Of a stretch of DNA of 24,161 nucleotides, positions 13,000 to 24,161 are shown one piece after another. Below the pieces are notes generated by a model that saw nothing but the letters and a program-made list of their open reading frames with translations, did no database searches and was not told where the DNA came from. The translations under genes and the position numbers were made by a program. How positions within the stretch are numbered: the first letter of the stretch is position 1; the number at the start of each line of letters is the position of its first letter. This DNA comes from a virus: positions 1 through 24,161 of IMG/VR virus record IMGVR_UViG_3300035670_001215; one strand, 5' to 3'.

Positions 13000-13327
13000 C
13001 TTCTAGTGCCTTTGCTTGGGTCTCGAATGATTTTGCCATAGACCTAAATTTAATGTACTTGTATATGCCAAATAGAGATGAGTCAGCCAGCCTGTAGCGA
13101 ATATCTCGCAACTTCATTAACTTATCCATGTCGCTGCCTTCTTGCTCATTTAGATAATCATTCACAAGTTTGAGTTGCTCTTTTTGTTTGGTTGTTGGTT
13201 GTTCAATGTGGAAGAATGACTCCAGCATTGGATTTGAATCAATACCTTCCTTGTTCATTACTGGTAATGGGTCAACTTTGTTCTGAACTATGGTTACTGC
13301 CCCATCCAATGGTGATGTGTCTGACAT
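12992..13327 (-). CDS. Unknown soluble protein, 111 aa
   Basis: The N-terminal ~45 residues look extended and proline-containing (TIVQNKVDPLPVMNKEG). The remainder is helical and charged (TTKQKEQLKLVNDYLNEQE, MDKLMKLRDIRYRLAD), ending in a helix with LFGIYKYIKFRSMAKSFETQ. No motif is recognised. The start overlaps the stop of the upstream glycosyltransferase by one base (TAATG), with AAAGGA as ribosome site. It sits at the end of the glycosylation cassette and could belong to it or be a minor virion protein; the sequence does not decide. Confidence 0.7.
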   Translation of the reverse strand: MSDTSPLDGAVTIVQNKVDPLPVMNKEGIDSNPMLESFFHIEQPTTKQKEQLKLVNDYLNEQEGSDMDKLMKLRDIRYRLADSSLFGIYKYIKFRSMAKSFETQAKALEDA

Positions 13328-14412
13328 TAGTGTCCTTTTGCTACAGAATTATACGCATTAAGCCAGTCATTTACACGTTTTTTAGAATCAAAGCCCATTT
13401 TGACCATTTTATGAGCTCTACCAGATAGGGTATCCCTCATTTTCTTGTCCTGAATGAGAGTTTCTAGCATATTTGAGAACTCAATAGGGTTTTTGTAGAG
13501 CGCAGCTGTGTCAGCAGTGGCTACGTTGTGGTATGGACCAATATCAGCCACTACCGATGCCACACCCATTGCACTAAATTCTAGAAATTTGATTGGTGAT
13601 TTATAGTGATTAAATGGCAGGTCAGCAAGTGGGATGATAGCTATGTCTAAGTTGAGACACATCATTCTGTAGGAATGCCCCTTAAAAGGAACCCAGTCGT
13701 GGACTTCTACTAAGTGTTTGTTGTGCGGTTCAATAAGTCCATCAAAAGAATTACCAGCTATAACCAGTGTGAACTGGTGTTTGTTCATAAGTCTGTTGAG
13801 CTGATCTTTTATGGTATGCCAGTCTTCATAGTGGCTGATGCCACCAGACCAGCCAATACGTAAGTTTCTGCTGTGAACAAACCTTGGCTTCCACCATCTT
13901 TCAAAATTTATTAGATTCGGAAGAATAGCCACATTATTGTTGTATGAGCGAGCATATTCAGCTAATTTTGGTGTGGTCACAGTTATTAGATTAGCGTTTC
14001 TCATTCCAAATATGTGTGTTTGCAGTCTAGCCCTGTTCTTCTTCACGTCTATGTTTACTCCGTCTTGCCACAGTTGAACTTTGGCATTTTTATCGTAGTA
14101 CTCATAGGTTCCATATTCTTCAAAGTGAGATGAGTAGGGTGAAATGATTTCTGTGTTGTCGTCTATGTCATAGACATATGGTTTATCTCTAAACTCTGGA
14201 ATGGTGCGAAGTTTTTGAAATCCAACTTCAGCTCCTGGTCTGATAACAAACAGGTCTGCTTCTGTCATCATTCTGGCAGACAGCTCTGGGTCGTCGTGTT
14301 GAGATAACACCTCAGCCCTAGAGTCTGAGTGTCTATTTATCATCTCGAATGGTTGTCTGATTCGATAGTGACCACAACCACCATCATCTACGGGTAGGCT
14401 AACTATTTTCAT
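13327..14412 (-). CDS. GT-B (family 4-like) glycosyltransferase, 361 aa
   Basis: The first ~170 residues give the N-terminal Rossmann domain (DGGCGHYRIRQPFEMI, then RPGAEVGFQKL), and residues ~185-350 the nucleotide-sugar domain, with LRIGWSGGISHYEDW, FTLVIAGNS and the donor-binding stretch SPIKFLEFSAMGVASVVADI. The last stretch is the E-x(4-7)-(E/G) signature region of GT4-type enzymes. It should transfer a sugar from a nucleotide donor to a glycan or protein; donor and acceptor are unknown. Its start overlaps the epimerase stop (ATGA), tying it to sugar-nucleotide synthesis. Length is normal for the fold. The target may be virion proteins or the host surface. Confidence 0.82.
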   Translation of the reverse strand: MKIVSLPVDDGGCGHYRIRQPFEMINRHSDSRAEVLSQHDDPELSARMMTEADLFVIRPGAEVGFQKLRTIPEFRDKPYVYDIDDNTEIISPYSSHFEEYGTYEYYDKNAKVQLWQDGVNIDVKKNRARLQTHIFGMRNANLITVTTPKLAEYARSYNNNVAILPNLINFERWWKPRFVHSRNLRIGWSGGISHYEDWHTIKDQLNRLMNKHQFTLVIAGNSFDGLIEPHNKHLVEVHDWVPFKGHSYRMMCLNLDIAIIPLADLPFNHYKSPIKFLEFSAMGVASVVADIGPYHNVATADTAALYKNPIEFSNMLETLIQDKKMRDTLSGRAHKMVKMGFDSKKRVNDWLNAYNSVAKGH

Positions 14413-15353
14413 GCTGTTCCCATCCAGTTATATAATTTTGTGAAACCGTCAGTTATGTCTGTTTTGCTTCGATAGTCATAGTGAGAGTTAAATTTCCCAC
14501 TAGAAATTAGTCTTGTGTGTACTCCAGATGGTTCTGCTGGCTGGTACTCAAAATCTGGTTCTATGCCTGCAATAGCACACACAGTTTTGGCTACATCAGT
14601 ACAGGACACTAGAGTATCTCCTGCGATGTTGACTGGACCATAGTAGTCTTTGTTAATAACTTGCCAAATCTTCTCAACCGCATCATCAATATACAGATAT
14701 TGTCTCTGTTGAGTGCCATCTCCCCAGATTTTCACTCTGTCTCCATCTTGTTTAGCATCCAACACTTTTTTGACTATGGCTGGTGGAAACTTTACTCTTT
14801 CACCTTCAAATTCTTGATATGGTCCATAGATGGTTCCAAAAATACCCACTCTCACATCAAGAGGTGATCTCTCTGAGAGCATGGTCATCATCAATTTGTC
14901 CCAACCATACATCTGGTCGGCTTGAGCAGGGAAAAGTATGTCCTCTGTTAGAAGTGTGGGAGAATTTTGTTGTTGAAGATGGGTAGGATAAATACAGGCT
15001 GAAGAAGCAAAAAACACTCTAGACACACCAATAGCCTCAGTTGCTCTTAGTATGTTAATGTTCATTTGCTGATTGTCTAGGTAGGGATAGTAGTCATTTT
15101 TGGTAAAGAATCCAACTCCACCCATATTGGCAGCTAGATGGATTACCACATCTGCCCCCCAAATAGCTTCTTGAGTCTGGTTGTAGTCTCTTATGTCAGC
15201 GTTGAATACTTCATCTGCCATAGAGTAGAGATCGGCTCTAATATCTGTCCAGTTGTTGTCAACTGCCACTACCCTGTGTGGGGTATGGTGTTTTAAGAAT
15301 GTGATAAGGTGTGAACCAATAAAGCCACTAGCCCCAGTTACAACTATGTCCAT
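14409..15353 (-). CDS. NDP-sugar epimerase, GDP-mannose 3,5-epimerase-like, 314 aa
   Basis: This is an extended short-chain dehydrogenase. GASGFIG (7-13) is the NAD-binding loop, SSACIYP (117-123) and YGWDK (Tyr149, Lys153) form the active site, and KIWGDGTQQRQYLYIDD is the substrate loop. The pattern (A-N/D-MGGVGF, ASSACIYP, IYGP, a Lys in VKFPPA at 188) follows plant-type GDP-mannose 3,5-epimerase, including the Cys120/Lys188 acid-base pair that family uses to invert C3 and C5 and make GDP-L-galactose. GDP-fucose synthase and other epimerases are close alternatives. AAGGAGC precedes ATG 15353. It lies between two glycosyltransferases with 4-10 bp overlaps, so it probably supplies their donor. 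Confidence 0.82.
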   Translation of the reverse strand: MDIVVTGASGFIGSHLITFLKHHTPHRVVAVDNNWTDIRADLYSMADEVFNADIRDYNQTQEAIWGADVVIHLAANMGGVGFFTKNDYYPYLDNQQMNINILRATEAIGVSRVFFASSACIYPTHLQQQNSPTLLTEDILFPAQADQMYGWDKLMMTMLSERSPLDVRVGIFGTIYGPYQEFEGERVKFPPAIVKKVLDAKQDGDRVKIWGDGTQQRQYLYIDDAVEKIWQVINKDYYGPVNIAGDTLVSCTDVAKTVCAIAGIEPDFEYQPAEPSGVHTRLISSGKFNSHYDYRSKTDITDGFTKLYNWMGTA

Positions 15354-15991
15354 AAACTGCTCCTTTCTTCATAGAGTCTGGTATCTTCCTGTACTTTTTC
15401 TCTTGTCTTTGCATGGGTGGCATCTGGCGACTGGAGACCATATGCTCTAGCGAAATGCTCTACAACACTATCTAAACAAGGTCTGAAAACACCTCTAAAT
15501 TGTGCTGTTTTTATAAACTCAGCATCTGTGTAGTTGTGAGAGTAACCCTCATATAAAACTGGATATGTCCTGTCAAATGTACCGCTGTTGGTACGAATAT
15601 ATTTGCCTCTGACTAAGTAGTGAGTGGCATGATCTCCAGTCAACACTTCTTGGTTGTGAAGGTCGTTTGTCCCAACCACCATAGTATTGCCAACCATCTC
15701 ATCTATGGCTATTTCCTCCCAACCAGGTGTAAATCGTATGTCGTCTGCACCAACAAAAAACAGGTCAGAATCCATTACCTCCCATGCTGAGTTAATTGCT
15801 CCTGCATAAGTCTTAGATCGGTGGTTAATCACTCTGACAGCGGTGGTCTTTGCAGCTTCTTCTCTAGAGAGCCCGTCTTCTTCTTCTAAAATAAGTACCA
15901 CAGTAGCTCTTGGGGTTGACTCCTGGATATGAGCTACCAACTCAACCAGTTTTTCTCCCCTACCGAATGTTGGAATGTATATATCGAGCAT
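15344..15991 (-). CDS. GT-A (family 2-like) glycosyltransferase, 215 aa
   Basis: This enzyme opens with LDIYIPTFGRGEKL, the usual beta-1/loop of GT2-type transferases that binds the nucleotide. Residues ~75-86 (SDLFFVGADDIRF) carry the acidic DxD-like metal/nucleotide motif, followed by FTPGWEEIAIDEM. A later YTDAEF, with Asp and Glu, may give the catalytic base. At 215 residues it is a single catalytic domain without membrane anchors. It overlaps the GT-B gene upstream by 32 bp and the epimerase downstream by 10 bp, an unusually tight coupling. The ribosome site AGAGGAAC lies before ATG 15991. Donor and acceptor are unknown. Confidence 0.78.
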   Translation of the reverse strand: MLDIYIPTFGRGEKLVELVAHIQESTPRATVVLILEEEDGLSREEAAKTTAVRVINHRSKTYAGAINSAWEVMDSDLFFVGADDIRFTPGWEEIAIDEMVGNTMVVGTNDLHNQEVLTGDHATHYLVRGKYIRTNSGTFDRTYPVLYEGYSHNYTDAEFIKTAQFRGVFRPCLDSVVEHFARAYGLQSPDATHAKTREKVQEDTRLYEERSSLWT

Positions 15992-16805
15992 AGAGTTCCT
16001 CTATCTTTTCAGCCATGTAGCTTAATGTGTACGGAGTTATATCTGATGGAACGGGAAGTACGTCTTGATCTAGAATTGAGCCAGACTCATTGACAGTAAA
16101 TACCATACCTGGCTTCCCACACAACCAACCTTCAATAGTTGTTCTCCCAAGCATCACTGAGGCAGTCATATCTACTCTTTGGGTAATAAGTTCTATTGAT
16201 CTCATCTCTGGGAGGGCAATAACATTCTTACTTTTAATATCTTGGTTTCTTCCAACTAAAATGAGGTTAATTTGGTCTTTGTATGCCATATCAACAAGAG
16301 CACCTATTGCCCTCTTTCTCAGATAGTCATTTGGTCCCACAAATAAGACTGTTTTTCTGCTGTCTTTAGCGTATTTAGTTGGGAAAAATCTAGACTCATC
16401 AACTCCATTAAATATGACTGATGATGATGTGAGAACATCTTTGAACTTCTCTTGGATACTTGGTCTAACACAGATATGATGGACAATATTTTTGGCTGTC
16501 ACTGGGTATTCTAGGTCTGTGAAGAGTTCTGAGTGGATGGTTTGAATAACTGGAACATCTAGAATTGAGCCAATCATAGCTGATTGCGCCTGATGAGCAT
16601 GAACAACATCAAATCCATCATCTAAGTCATCTAACAACTCAACACCAGAGGAGACAATCTCCTTAAGCGGTTCACCTCGTATTACAGAGGTGGAGTAAAT
16701 AGCCACTGTGTGTCCAAAGCTAACCTGTTTTTTAGCTAAATCACTCACATAGAGCTCTGCTCCAGTAAGCGAACCAATCTGAGGAATAATGTGTAAAATT
16801 ACCAT
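15960..16805 (-). CDS. Short GT-B glycosyltransferase, 281 aa
   Basis: The N-terminal domain starts VILHIIPQIGSLTGAELYVS, the G-G-AE pattern typical of GT4 enzymes, with GFDVVHAHQAQSAMIG as the next strand-helix. The C-terminal domain holds KTVLFVGPNDYLRKR, INLILVGRNQDI and TTIEGWLCGKPGMVFTVNES, equivalent to the donor-binding E-x(n)-G-x-P region. At 281 residues it is shorter than the usual ~370, so loops or parts of the N-domain are trimmed. ATG 16805 is chosen because TTG 16823 lies within the upstream gene and adds an unlikely six residues; ATG overlaps the upstream TAA region. It is the first enzyme of the glycosylation cassette. Confidence 0.76.
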   Translation of the reverse strand: MVILHIIPQIGSLTGAELYVSDLAKKQVSFGHTVAIYSTSVIRGEPLKEIVSSGVELLDDLDDGFDVVHAHQAQSAMIGSILDVPVIQTIHSELFTDLEYPVTAKNIVHHICVRPSIQEKFKDVLTSSSVIFNGVDESRFFPTKYAKDSRKTVLFVGPNDYLRKRAIGALVDMAYKDQINLILVGRNQDIKSKNVIALPEMRSIELITQRVDMTASVMLGRTTIEGWLCGKPGMVFTVNESGSILDQDVLPVPSDITPYTLSYMAEKIEELYARYIHSNIR

Positions 16806-17143
16806 TTTTCTACAATCCACCAAGGTCTTACTAGGTCATGGTGCATAGCTCGTTTGTCATACATCCAATCTGGACCATAAATGGCTGAGAGCGTCTTGTT
16901 TACGAAGTCGTAAATAAGCGGAGATGGAAATCTAACTACTTCTCGATGCACTTTTGACTTAGAACCCTTCTCAAACACACCAGATGCTCTTAAGCCCTGG
17001 TAGTAAGACATGATTTTTGGGTCACTGTAGGTGCGATAGATGATTTTTCTAGCTTTCTCATCTAGTGAGTCGGCAAGAGCGGTTAAGGTAAGACGTAGTT
17101 TCTCGTCGTCAAAAGCAACTAGCTCGAAGTCTATTTTGGTCAT
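16799..17143 (-). CDS. Unknown protein heading glycosylation operon, 114 aa
   Basis: This basic, soluble protein begins TKIDFELVAFDDEKLRLTLT and has helical segments up to about residue 60, followed by a Trp/Tyr-rich end (YGPDWMYDKRAMHHDLVRPW, closing IVEKW). No domain is recognised. ATG 17143 directly follows the T7 tract of module 5; an in-frame GTG twelve bases further upstream would lie in the hairpin itself and is rejected. Its stop overlaps the next gene's start. It could be a head-completion protein, since it follows the capsid gene, or an acceptor or accessory protein for glycosylation. Neither can be shown here. Confidence 0.68.
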   Translation of the reverse strand: MTKIDFELVAFDDEKLRLTLTALADSLDEKARKIIYRTYSDPKIMSYYQGLRASGVFEKGSKSKVHREVVRFPSPLIYDFVNKTLSAIYGPDWMYDKRAMHHDLVRPWWIVEKW

Positions 17144-21471: not shown

Positions 21472-21826
21472 GAGTGTGGCTCCGTATGTATGTTTCTACT
21501 TGTGAAAGAAATTCATCTTTCATAGATTCGTTCAACCATAGGTTCTCTGAGCGTAGTGTTTTGGTGGTGGCAGAGATGTGTTCTTTCAGTCTGTCTTCAT
21601 ACGACTCAAGCAGTGCTTCAATTAAGCCATCTGGAATGCCGTCCTTTACTGTCTGCTCTAGACTTACTACCCTAGGAAACAGCTCCTTTCTAGTGTTGGA
21701 GATGGTTCGCTGAAGGTAGTCCTGTCTGCCTGATAGGTGTTTGATGACCTCTGCTGTCTTGGTGAAGTCTTCTTCAATCCCAAGTAAATTCCTCAGAGTT
21801 TTTTGTATCTTCAAACCCAGTTTCAT
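21464..21826 (-). CDS. Coiled-coil unknown protein, 120 aa
   Basis: This mostly helical protein carries a long charged region (EEDFTKTAEVIKHLSGRQDY, then VSLEQTVKDGIPDGLIEALL) and a C-terminal helix with MKDEFLSQVETYIRSHTHG. ATG 21826 is chosen because a perfect AGGAGG lies three bases before it; the earlier ATG 21850 has no site. The gene overlaps the terminase 3' end by 53 bp in another frame. No family is recognised. Location next to the large terminase suggests a packaging or head role. Confidence 0.7.
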   Translation of the reverse strand: MKLGLKIQKTLRNLLGIEEDFTKTAEVIKHLSGRQDYLQRTISNTRKELFPRVVSLEQTVKDGIPDGLIEALLESYEDRLKEHISATTKTLRSENLWLNESMKDEFLSQVETYIRSHTHG

Positions 21827-23156
21827 ATTCCTCCTCGTGTACTGGCACATACGTCCCTGGAATCTTGTCTTCCCAGGGTTTTTTAGCTTCTGACTGTTTG
21901 TAGTAGTGTTGGTACATCACATTTAAGTCTCCCAGAGAGTCCATACCGTGGTCGTTGGCTTTCTCTGGGTTTTCATCTTCATTGGGGGAAATATCTCCCA
22001 GTTCTGCCATCATGTCAGCAGTAATCTTCTTATCTTTGTATTTGTAGGTCTCAAATTCTCTGATGTAATTCACACACCTGGGGTGAATGTAGATGTTTGG
22101 CTTGCCATTGGCTTTAATATCTAGTCTGGAATACAATCTCTGAATCTTATATCTGACGTATTCTGCGTTGGTTTCTCCTGATTCTTTTCTCACAGGCAGA
22201 AAGTCATGTCCTAGGTCTTGGAGCTCTTTAATGTCTCCAGCCTGAGCAGAGTCCATGGTAGACAGTTCGTACTCTCGAATATCTAGTTCATTGTCCATGT
22301 CAAATAGTCTGTCTGAGAGACGGGAATTGGTTAGTCCTGTTTCATAAATTTCATGGGTCATATACCAAATACCATCCTTGTTTACCTGGACATAACAGAC
22401 AGCTGTTGGGTTAGTAAATCCACGGTCAAGCCCTCTTATCCAGAACACTGGTTGAAAGTCAGTCAATACCTGAACGTGAATATCTCTGTTGAAGTTCTTG
22501 TAGACCAGTCCCTTCATCTTTCTAAAATCACCCAGCATTTCTTGGGCAAAAGAGTCTTCAGTCATCTCTGATCTGGACTGTTCTATTTCTTCTCTAGGGA
22601 TATGTGGATTGTCAAACACTGTGAAGTGAAAGTACTCCCAGTCACTTCTTCTGTTACAGGTGTCAGCTAGGCTCTTGAAGTGATTAAATCCATTGGGAGT
22701 AGAGATAAACCAACACTCTGCTTGTGAGTCCATTAGTGTAGGTCTTAGAATTGACCAAACAGCTCCCCAATTCACAATAAAAGCCACCTCATCAAAAATA
22801 ATGAAATCTATCTTCACTCCACGCAGGGAATCGGGGTTATCTGCTCCCTTTAATTCAATCACTGTGCCGTTGCTCATAACAACAGTCAGCTCTTGTTCAT
22901 TCTTCTTGGCAATCATGGCTTCAGGAACATAGTCACCAATCATCTGCCACATGATGTTTTTAGCCTGTCTATAGGTAGGAGCTACATACCAAATCCTAGC
23001 TCCAGGCTTCTTGGCAGCTAAATCAATCATTTTCAGGAGAGCAAGGGTAGATTTACCTGTTCTTCGTCCACAGTTAATCACCTTAAAGCGGTGAGCATCA
23101 TCCCAGACTTGGGTTTGCCATTTGAGGAGGTAGACAGGTTTATATTGAACGTCCAT
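21774..23156 (-). CDS. terL: Terminase large subunit, 460 aa
   Basis: The ATPase half has Walker A GRRTGKST (30-37), Walker B IIFDE (119-123, catalytic Glu123) and the coupling motif STPNG (152-156). The RNase H-like nuclease half carries acidic residues in GLDRGFTNP (Asp244), TMDSAQ (Asp302) and NDHGMDSLGDL (Asp402/Asp406). This is the full motor/nuclease layout of the Terminase_6 type, and the length is normal. It cuts concatemeric DNA and pumps it through the portal. ATG 23156 is the only start after an upstream in-frame stop; it lies in the 3' arm of a hairpin and has no ribosome site. Its 3' end overlaps the next gene by 53 bp. Confidence 0.95.
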   Translation of the reverse strand: MDVQYKPVYLLKWQTQVWDDAHRFKVINCGRRTGKSTLALLKMIDLAAKKPGARIWYVAPTYRQAKNIMWQMIGDYVPEAMIAKKNEQELTVVMSNGTVIELKGADNPDSLRGVKIDFIIFDEVAFIVNWGAVWSILRPTLMDSQAECWFISTPNGFNHFKSLADTCNRRSDWEYFHFTVFDNPHIPREEIEQSRSEMTEDSFAQEMLGDFRKMKGLVYKNFNRDIHVQVLTDFQPVFWIRGLDRGFTNPTAVCYVQVNKDGIWYMTHEIYETGLTNSRLSDRLFDMDNELDIREYELSTMDSAQAGDIKELQDLGHDFLPVRKESGETNAEYVRYKIQRLYSRLDIKANGKPNIYIHPRCVNYIREFETYKYKDKKITADMMAELGDISPNEDENPEKANDHGMDSLGDLNVMYQHYYKQSEAKKPWEDKIPGTYVPVHEEEYETGFEDTKNSEEFTWD

Positions 23157-23174
23157 GAGTTTTTAGGCTCATGG
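23153..23174 (-). promoter_or_regulatory. Hairpin over terminase start codon
   Basis: On the minus strand CCATGAG pairs with CTCATGG (7 bp, loop CCTAAAAA). The terminase ATG is inside the 3' arm. No Shine-Dalgarno sequence is seen, so translation may be restrained. Confidence 0.5.
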
Positions 23175-23181
23175 TGGGTGC

Positions 23182-23190
23182 ATTATAGCA
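23182..23190 (-). promoter_or_regulatory. Extended -10 promoter before terminase
   Basis: The minus strand has TGC-TATAAT, an extended -10 with perfect hexamer, flanked by GTGC/GCAC arms. No good -35 lies 17 bp upstream. The start would be about 7 nt on, so the RNA begins almost at the hairpin at 23174. Confidence 0.6.
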
Positions 23191-23191
23191 C

Positions 23192-23422
23192 TCAATACCA
23201 CACAGTCTTCTTACCTATCTTAAACAAATCTTTCCTCACCAGTGAGATAAAAATTCCTCTGCCAAAGTCCCACTCATCCATCAATTCAAACTTGGGATAC
23301 CAAATAGAAAAATACCTATCTACCACATGTCTTCTCTTAGGTTCTCTATAGATACCACTGGCTGTTAATGGTTCAACTATAGAGAGAGCACTGTGAGCCT
23401 GTTTAATTGTTTTTTTTGTCAT
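23192..23422 (-). CDS. Unknown basic protein, 76 aa
   Basis: A small, basic and aromatic protein begins TKKTIKQAHSALSIVEP and has EPKRRHVVDRYFSIWYPKF and FGRGIFISLVRKDLFKIGKK. No recognised motif. It starts 3 bp after the preceding gene's stop, with AAGTGAT as a weak ribosome site, so both are probably cotranscribed from the TTACGTAA control region. Position before the large terminase and the basic charge make a small-terminase or DNA-binding role possible, but no helix-turn-helix is evident. Confidence 0.65.
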   Translation of the reverse strand: MTKKTIKQAHSALSIVEPLTASGIYREPKRRHVVDRYFSIWYPKFELMDEWDFGRGIFISLVRKDLFKIGKKTVWY

Positions 23423-23425
23423 TTA

Positions 23426-23812
23426 TCACTTTGAGAACATATGTTTCTTACAGAGGTTTTTAGGAATTCCACAGGGACAGAGATCACCTACTTTTTTCTC
23501 GTAGAACCCCGATGATTCAGTTTTGGGTGTTGGTTTAATTTTCTTCTTAATCTTAGGCATTTCTGGACCAGGGTATGTGAACTCAGCCACAGAACCATCA
23601 TCTAACTTCACCTCAGTAGTTACTATTGGTTTTATCTTAGGTATGGTCTTAGGAGTGATGGGAATGGCTCTTACTGGTTTCTCAACTGCATGCTCCTCAA
23701 TCACCGCATGAATTGTTGCCACAACCTTACCATAGTGTGTTATTTGCACGGGCAAATCTTCCAAACACTTAGAAGGGTTGATTTGTAATTGACGAATACT
23801 GATTTGTTTCAT
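23426..23812 (-). CDS. Phd/YefM-like DNA-binding protein with Cys-rich tail, 128 aa
   Basis: Residues 2-38 (QISIRQLQINPSKCLEDLPV, then QITHYGKVVATI) follow the Phd/YefM antitoxin N-terminal pattern 'ISIRELR-NPS--LE-----V-ITR-GKPVA-I', a ribbon/helix fold that dimerises and binds palindromic DNA. The middle (45-105) is a Pro/Lys-rich linker with an acidic strand (EVKLDDGSVAEFTYPGPEMP). The end holds CPCGIPKNLCKKH (Cys112, Cys114, Cys121, His124), a possible small metal site. No toxin gene follows, so it is not a standard toxin-antitoxin pair. ATG 23812 is used; it abuts the first TTACGTAA copy and has no ribosome site, and TTG 23869 would read through the array. It is the first leftward gene and may regulate itself. 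Confidence 0.66.
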   Translation of the reverse strand: MKQISIRQLQINPSKCLEDLPVQITHYGKVVATIHAVIEEHAVEKPVRAIPITPKTIPKIKPIVTTEVKLDDGSVAEFTYPGPEMPKIKKKIKPTPKTESSGFYEKKVGDLCPCGIPKNLCKKHMFSK

Positions 23813-23813
23813 G

Positions 23814-23904
23814 TTACGTAAGATTAGATATGTTACGTAACTTATATATCCAAATGTTACGTAAGTCAATGAGTGTTACGTAAGATGTTACGTAATTTAC
23901 GTAT
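23814..23904. repeat. Array of TTACGTAA palindromes (five exact, one degenerate)
   Basis: Exact copies lie at 23814-23821, 23833-23840, 23857-23864, 23876-23883 and 23888-23895, with TTACGTAT at 23897-23904. All exact copies share TGTTACGTAA in the same orientation on the plus strand. Start-to-start distances are 19, 24, 19, 12 and 9 bp, so helical phase is not constant. The array covers the promoter and leader of the Phd-like gene. Confidence 0.9.
23841..23869 (-). promoter_or_regulatory. Promoter of Phd-like gene inside the palindrome array
   Basis: The minus strand has TTGACT (23869-23864), a 17-bp spacer and TATAAG (23846-23841). Copies of TTACGTAA overlap the -35 edge and spacer (23857-23864), abut the -10 (23833-23840) and sit next to the start codon (23814-23821), a typical repression layout. 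Confidence 0.66.
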
Positions 23905-24161
23905 ACCACCCTTTCAAAAACAAACCCTACCCCACTTGGACACAGGTAATCAGGTACACCAGGGGGGGTTACCAGGGGTAGGATTCAGAGATAGGATTGC
24001 ATGTACACGCACCCAAGTTTCCCTCAAGAGGAGGTATGGACAACACACCTACAAGGTGTCACGTCGCACAATATTTATTGTGCGAAGTCTATCCCCTCGA
24101 GTAGAGACTACTGTTCTTTGTTATGGGATTCTATTGGCGTAACATCTATGACAGTACTCCC
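23905..24161. other. Non-coding control or packaging region with inverted repeats
   Basis: No convincing ORF is seen in these 257 bases on either strand. They hold a G-rich stretch with ACCAGGGG repeated (23957-23978), a 6-bp hairpin ACACCT-ACA-AGGTGT (24045-24059) and a 22-bp near-perfect palindrome TCGCACAATA-TT-TATTGTGCGA (24064-24085). The position upstream of the terminase gene suits a regulator, origin or packaging site; no assignment is possible. The right end may also contain the last codons of a leftward gene from outside the window. Confidence 0.55.

Follow-up and report, generated by a model that had tools for sequence, protein, structure and literature searches.

A 24,161-base virus record from IMG/VR, which is analysed here over its whole length and is referred to as the window, carries a cluster of the octamer TTACGTAA directly upstream of an orphan 128-aa ORF. 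We give about an even chance that this array is a multi-site transcriptional operator, most likely bound by the 128-aa product, which would repress its own promoter. The main reason for preferring an operator is that the position of the octamer relative to the -35 element is the same as in the promoters of viral HicAB operons and of a KfrA gene. If this is right, a phage protein that no library recognises can be assigned a binding site and a candidate role as repressor.

The record is classed as linear and is probably a fragment. Profile matches place the terminase large subunit gene (terL), a P22-like portal and an SU10-type capsid protein on the minus strand of the window, and genes resembling glycosyltransferases and NAD-dependent epimerases form a block (13327-16823) amid the structural genes. 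The 76-aa ORF that follows the 128-aa ORF is probably on the same transcript. On the other side of the array the contig ends after ~256-266 bp. No credible ORF was found in this noncoding leader, and Rfam and tRNA searches across the array region were empty. The DNA fold of 24040-24110 has a z of -4.9, and the three consecutive hairpins before the contig end (24038-24105) include TCGCACAATA-AA-TATTGTGCGA. The features are collected in Table 1.

Table 1. Coordinates of the array, the predicted promoter and the neighbouring genes in the window.
Feature	Position	Strand	Evidence	Remark
Terminase large subunit (terL)	21774..23156	-	PF03237 7e-16, phrog_2 7e-51	
76-aa ORF	23192..23422	-		3 bases after the 128-aa ORF
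Orphan 128-aa ORF, candidate autoregulator	23426..23812	-	ORF prediction, no homologue	
TTACGTAA site 1	23814..23821		exact match	one base upstream of the start codon, ribosome-binding-site position
TTACGTAA site 2	23833..23840		exact match	immediately after the -10, covers the predicted start of transcription
Putative sigma-70 promoter TTGACT-17-TATAAG	23841..23869	-	10/12 consensus bases	
TTACGTAA site 3	23857..23864		exact match	in the promoter spacer, abuts the -35, shares base 23864
TTACGTAA site 4	23876..23883		exact match	upstream of the -35
TTACGTAA site 5	23888..23895		exact match	upstream of the -35
Degenerate site 6, TTACGTAT	23897..23904		one mismatch	upstream of the -35
Noncoding leader, 256 bp, with G7 run and three consecutive hairpins	23905..24161			up to the contig end

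All five exact copies of the octamer in the 24-kb fragment lie inside 82 bp, and the sixth copy with its single mismatch extends the array to 91 bp (23814-23904), in agreement with what the first-pass annotation had described. The number expected in 100 dinucleotide shuffles was 0.10 on average with a maximum of 1, and five copies were reached in none of them. The proposal that the rest of the genome be searched for the octamer led to the same place: enrichment is found at the array only, with no exact copy elsewhere in the fragment. Besides site 6 there are only two single-mismatch copies in the 24 kb, neither near a gene start, and no copy, even with one mismatch, lies upstream of any other gene start in the fragment. 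Read on the plus strand all five exact sites are TGTTACGTAA; because the octamer itself is palindromic, their common orientation is a property of the flanking bases. The sites are spaced by 19, 24, 19 and 12 bp. This unequal spacing, together with the differing intervening sequence, indicates that the copies did not arise by simple tandem duplication. Their helix-face phasing (R=0.80, simulated p=0.07) is suggestive of sites that lie roughly on one face.

The array coincides with a predicted promoter. On the minus strand, TTGACT (23869-23864) is separated by a 17-bp spacer from TATAAG (23846-23841), with a predicted start at about 23834, in site 2. A single base separates site 1 from the ATG of the 128-aa ORF at 23812. 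This ATG is without a Shine-Dalgarno sequence, and many genes in the window have one. Shuffling the flanks around unchanged sites produced a promoter with 10 of 12 consensus bases that overlapped a site in 0.9% of trials. The earlier claim that the array covers the -35, the -10, the start site and the start-codon region stands, with TTGACT-17-TATAAG beneath the sites and site 1 one base from the ATG.

The octamer recurs in the same promoter register at other viral loci. Loci with two copies of TTACGTAA within 24 bp were sampled from IMG/VR, and a control set was built with TTAGCTAA. Pairs of TTACGTAA lay outside long ORFs in 58 of 118 cases, as against 33 of 120 for the control. Among 64 distinct intergenic TTACGTAA-pair loci, there are nine in which a strong promoter has the octamer between its -35 and -10 (e.g. 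TTGACATTACGTAAATTACGTAATATAAT), compared with 1.6% when the flanks were shuffled and 1/31 control loci. Seven of these nine precede hicA/hicB (L077, L089, L101, L108, L109, L123 and L170, with L089 cut after hicA); the remaining two precede a KfrA_N gene (L015) and an ORF (L131). The HicB proteins of the seven operons have a ribbon-helix-helix (RHH)-like tail at their end. These viral HicAB operons have in common a promoter of the form TTGACA-TTACGTAA-(A/T)-TTACGTA-like-TATAAT, which looks like a shared operator of RHH-type HicB antitoxins. In L015 (1841-1912) five copies of TTACGTAA lie over the promoter of the KfrA_N-family gene, two of them in the -35/-10 spacer. HicB antitoxins are autoregulators (PMC11594946), as are KfrA proteins (PMC7783346). 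Two unrelated classes of autoregulated genes, HicAB and KfrA, have the octamer at the same place in their promoters, and the window gene would be a further case if the operator is correctly identified. Several repeat loci of TTACGTAA proved to be coding repeats and were discarded (L013, L016/L020, L012/L023, L017 and L065/L067). No operator from bacteria or phages emerged when the literature was searched for TTACGTAA, and almost all of the papers dealt with eukaryotic bZIP proteins.

The first-pass annotation had predicted an operator with autoregulation, and at the level of sequence this prediction gains support from the promoter overlap and from independent loci with the octamer in the same promoter position. 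In the mechanism that we propose, a small protein that binds DNA as a dimer, and is most likely the 128-aa product, would occupy several copies of TTACGTAA side by side, presumably filling them cooperatively on one helix face. Occupancy would span the -35, the spacer, the -10, the start site and the start codon, so that the protein would shut off its own promoter once enough of it had been made. We infer both that repression occurs and that the 128-aa protein is the binder. The 128-aa and 76-aa ORFs would then probably form a small self-controlled cassette before terL and not the master control of the late operon. Of the six reading frames here, that of the 128-aa ORF has the highest codon score, and at 0.07 this score is well below that of nearly all known genes in the window (mostly 0.24-0.50); the 76-aa ORF also scores more poorly than nearly all neighbouring genes. 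Such low scores would fit a recently acquired cassette. Control of the terminase operon by the array is unproven, since terL is directly preceded by an extended -10-like TGCTATAAT (23154-23190, minus strand). An inverted repeat, CCATGAG-CCTAAAAA-CTCATGG, is also found there, and its second arm contains the terL start codon. With TGCTATAAT and this repeat at its start, terL may have a promoter of its own, and a separate promoter and operator for terL are possible.

A point against autoregulation is the 128-aa protein itself, which matches none of the DNA-binding families significantly. It is composed of a weakly Phd-like N-terminus, a Pro/Lys-rich linker and a C-terminal CxCx6CxxH cluster. Searches of Pfam, PHROGs and NCBIfam returned nothing relevant, a PDB sequence search returned one irrelevant weak match only, and no relatives were found in IMG/VR, GTDB genomes, GenBank phages or plasmids. 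The product had been said to look like an orphan Phd/YefM domain, an assignment that these searches do not establish. The Phd/YefM family PF02604 gave no Pfam match up to E=1 with the full length or up to E=10 with the N-terminal 50 aa, and structure predictions for the full length and for the N-terminal 60 aa were of low confidence with no Phd fold visible. The suggested profile comparison had a divided outcome: hhalign aligned residues 1-34 with the N-terminus of Phd in the correct register, but with a marginal score of 19.8. Of 844 shuffled or unrelated sequences five scored as high, although none of those five aligned N-terminus to N-terminus. The Phd-like N-terminus is a weak hint from sequence and does not establish family membership, and the Phd label is unfit for annotation.

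The operators of the family also differ from the window array. The comparison used a profile and 110 upstream regions from real Phd/YefM family genes, a set that leans towards YefM and was fetched with a YefM query sequence that its matches confirmed. TGTACA occurs in 53 of the 110 upstream regions (2.1 expected) and GGTACC in 25, so that the family operators have a GTAC core, whereas TACGTA, as in the window, occurs in 2 of the 110 (2.5 expected) and is not enriched. A Phd-like 128-aa protein would therefore need a DNA specificity unlike that of the sampled, YefM-leaning family members. The accompanying observation that no toxin gene is adjacent holds for the downstream side, where the 76-aa neighbour matches no family in the profile libraries; the upstream side ends at the contig end.

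The binder could instead be another regulator, either one from the host or one whose gene lies in the part of the phage genome beyond the fragment. It is possible, though on the unlikely side, that the array is the operator of such a regulator (RHH, HTH or HicB-like) and that the promoter is one target of its regulon. The octamer stands in the same register in the seven HicAB operons whose HicB has the RHH-like tail, and the 128-aa protein is not recognisable as DNA-binding, both of which favor a binder of another kind. However, there are no further copies near other gene starts in the 24 kb, and neither of the adjoining ORFs matches the HicA or HicB profiles.

A different and rather improbable explanation is that the array is the recognition part of a packaging-initiation site (pac or cos) that is bound by a small terminase function. 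With 658 bp between it and the downstream terL, the array is in the position that terS has in relatives; in four phages related by their terminase or capsid protein (L006, L040, L041 and L042) a terS-like gene directly precedes terL, where the window has the array and the two orphan ORFs. Scans selected for the motif additionally returned TTACGTAA arrays before terS-terL (L027 and L032/L038), before a terL-proximal ParB-like gene (L033/L037) and, in G007/L026, 80 bp from one contig end with a TerS-like ORF starting the other end. This explanation is kept because the array stands where terS would be expected and a few unrelated phages have similar arrays ahead of their terS. Against it, profile searches recognised no TerS-like protein in the window, the 128-aa protein is without a helical TerS-like architecture, and the four relatives carry no TTACGTAA array. 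Among 72 terL-bearing loci an upstream three-copy palindrome array was found only in the window (with its own sub-loci) and in L027, which had been fetched for the motif. Among randomly sampled TTACGTAA pairs terL is not clearly enriched, with only L088/L157, L148 and the doubtful L159, and a packaging site leaves the promoter overlap unexplained.

Several arrangements seen at these loci are recorded here as observations. The 23.8-kb record G007 (L026 at its end, L299 at its start) has four copies of TTACGTAA after an HNH-like gene and looks like an HNH-array-terminus-terS order. In a phage of 55% GC, tandem 21-bp repeats TGTTACGTAACA(G/A)GATT(C/T)CGC lie directly upstream of a putative terS-terL-portal block (L032:2730-2780, identical to L038). 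The AT-rich L148 has, upstream of terL and ahead of a TerS-like gene, a long series of short palindromic repeats that resemble ACGTAATATA. The broader idea that the arrays generally stand before terminase genes arose from the motif-specific hits and was rejected on the random sample and the 72 terL loci. Arrays as marks of contig or genome ends, an idea prompted by a few striking loci, were also rejected on the larger sample, since 5 of 58 TTACGTAA loci and 7 of 33 control loci lay within 300 bp of a locus end.

A combined scheme, which we regard as very unlikely, would make the arrays a packaging-initiation element upstream of terS in several unrelated phages; in the window a Phd-like protein with a zinc-type tail would have replaced the small terminase and would bind the array both for self-repression and as a packaging mark. 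An iteron-like replication origin or partition site, as might be suggested by the directly oriented short repeats, the strong adjoining hairpins and the 256-bp noncoding stretch, is scarcely plausible given the irregular spacing (12, 19, 24, 19), the promoter and start codon embedded in the array, and a fragment in which no replication initiator or partition gene lies beside it. Chance or a meaningless repeat expansion has nothing more in its favor than the general existence of short repeats and hardly merits consideration, being already contradicted by the 0/100 shuffles that reach five copies.

An operator is likely, and the form with autoregulation, which we prefer, would be a type of switch that is itself already known; of wider bearing is that TTACGTAA recurs at the promoters of HicAB and KfrA. 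If the operator is correct, the octamer offers a simple way to search viral DNA for accessory cassettes that regulate themselves, as well as a binding-site prediction for phage RHH-type HicB antitoxins, for which (e.g. the HicB of L108) the candidate target is TTGACATTACGTAAATTACGTAGTATAAT.

Several known systems resemble the array in part. The hexamers of P1 pac and the R sites of lambda cosB are phage pac/cos recognition arrays. The window sites are likewise short, clustered and near terminase genes, but they overlap a promoter, are absent from relatives and are accompanied by no recognised TerS. YefM-YoeB and Phd-Doc share with the window short palindromes over the promoter, and the 128-aa protein has its weakly Phd-like N-terminus; the L and S palindromes of YefM are spaced by 12 bp (PMC7730913), as are sites 4 and 5. 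The window differs from them in its ACGT rather than GTAC core, in having no toxin gene and in its five copies as against one or two. In the seven HicAB cases TTACGTAA abuts the -35 inside the spacer with more copies close by, as in the window, but the window ORFs are neither HicA nor HicB, the sites number five as opposed to two or three, and the binding of TTACGTAA by HicB is putative. The closest published architecture is the KfrA operator of the IncU plasmid RA3, in which five 9-bp repeats, absent from the rest of the plasmid, overlap the -35 and -10, and the strength of which depends on copy number (PMC7783346). The RA3 repeat differs in sequence, and the window gene is not KfrA-like and is a putative repressor. 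Nevertheless, the window also has five short repeats over the -35 and -10, the 24-kb stretch that probably is part of a larger genome contains no further copies, and the KfrA_N gene in L015 even has five copies of TTACGTAA itself.
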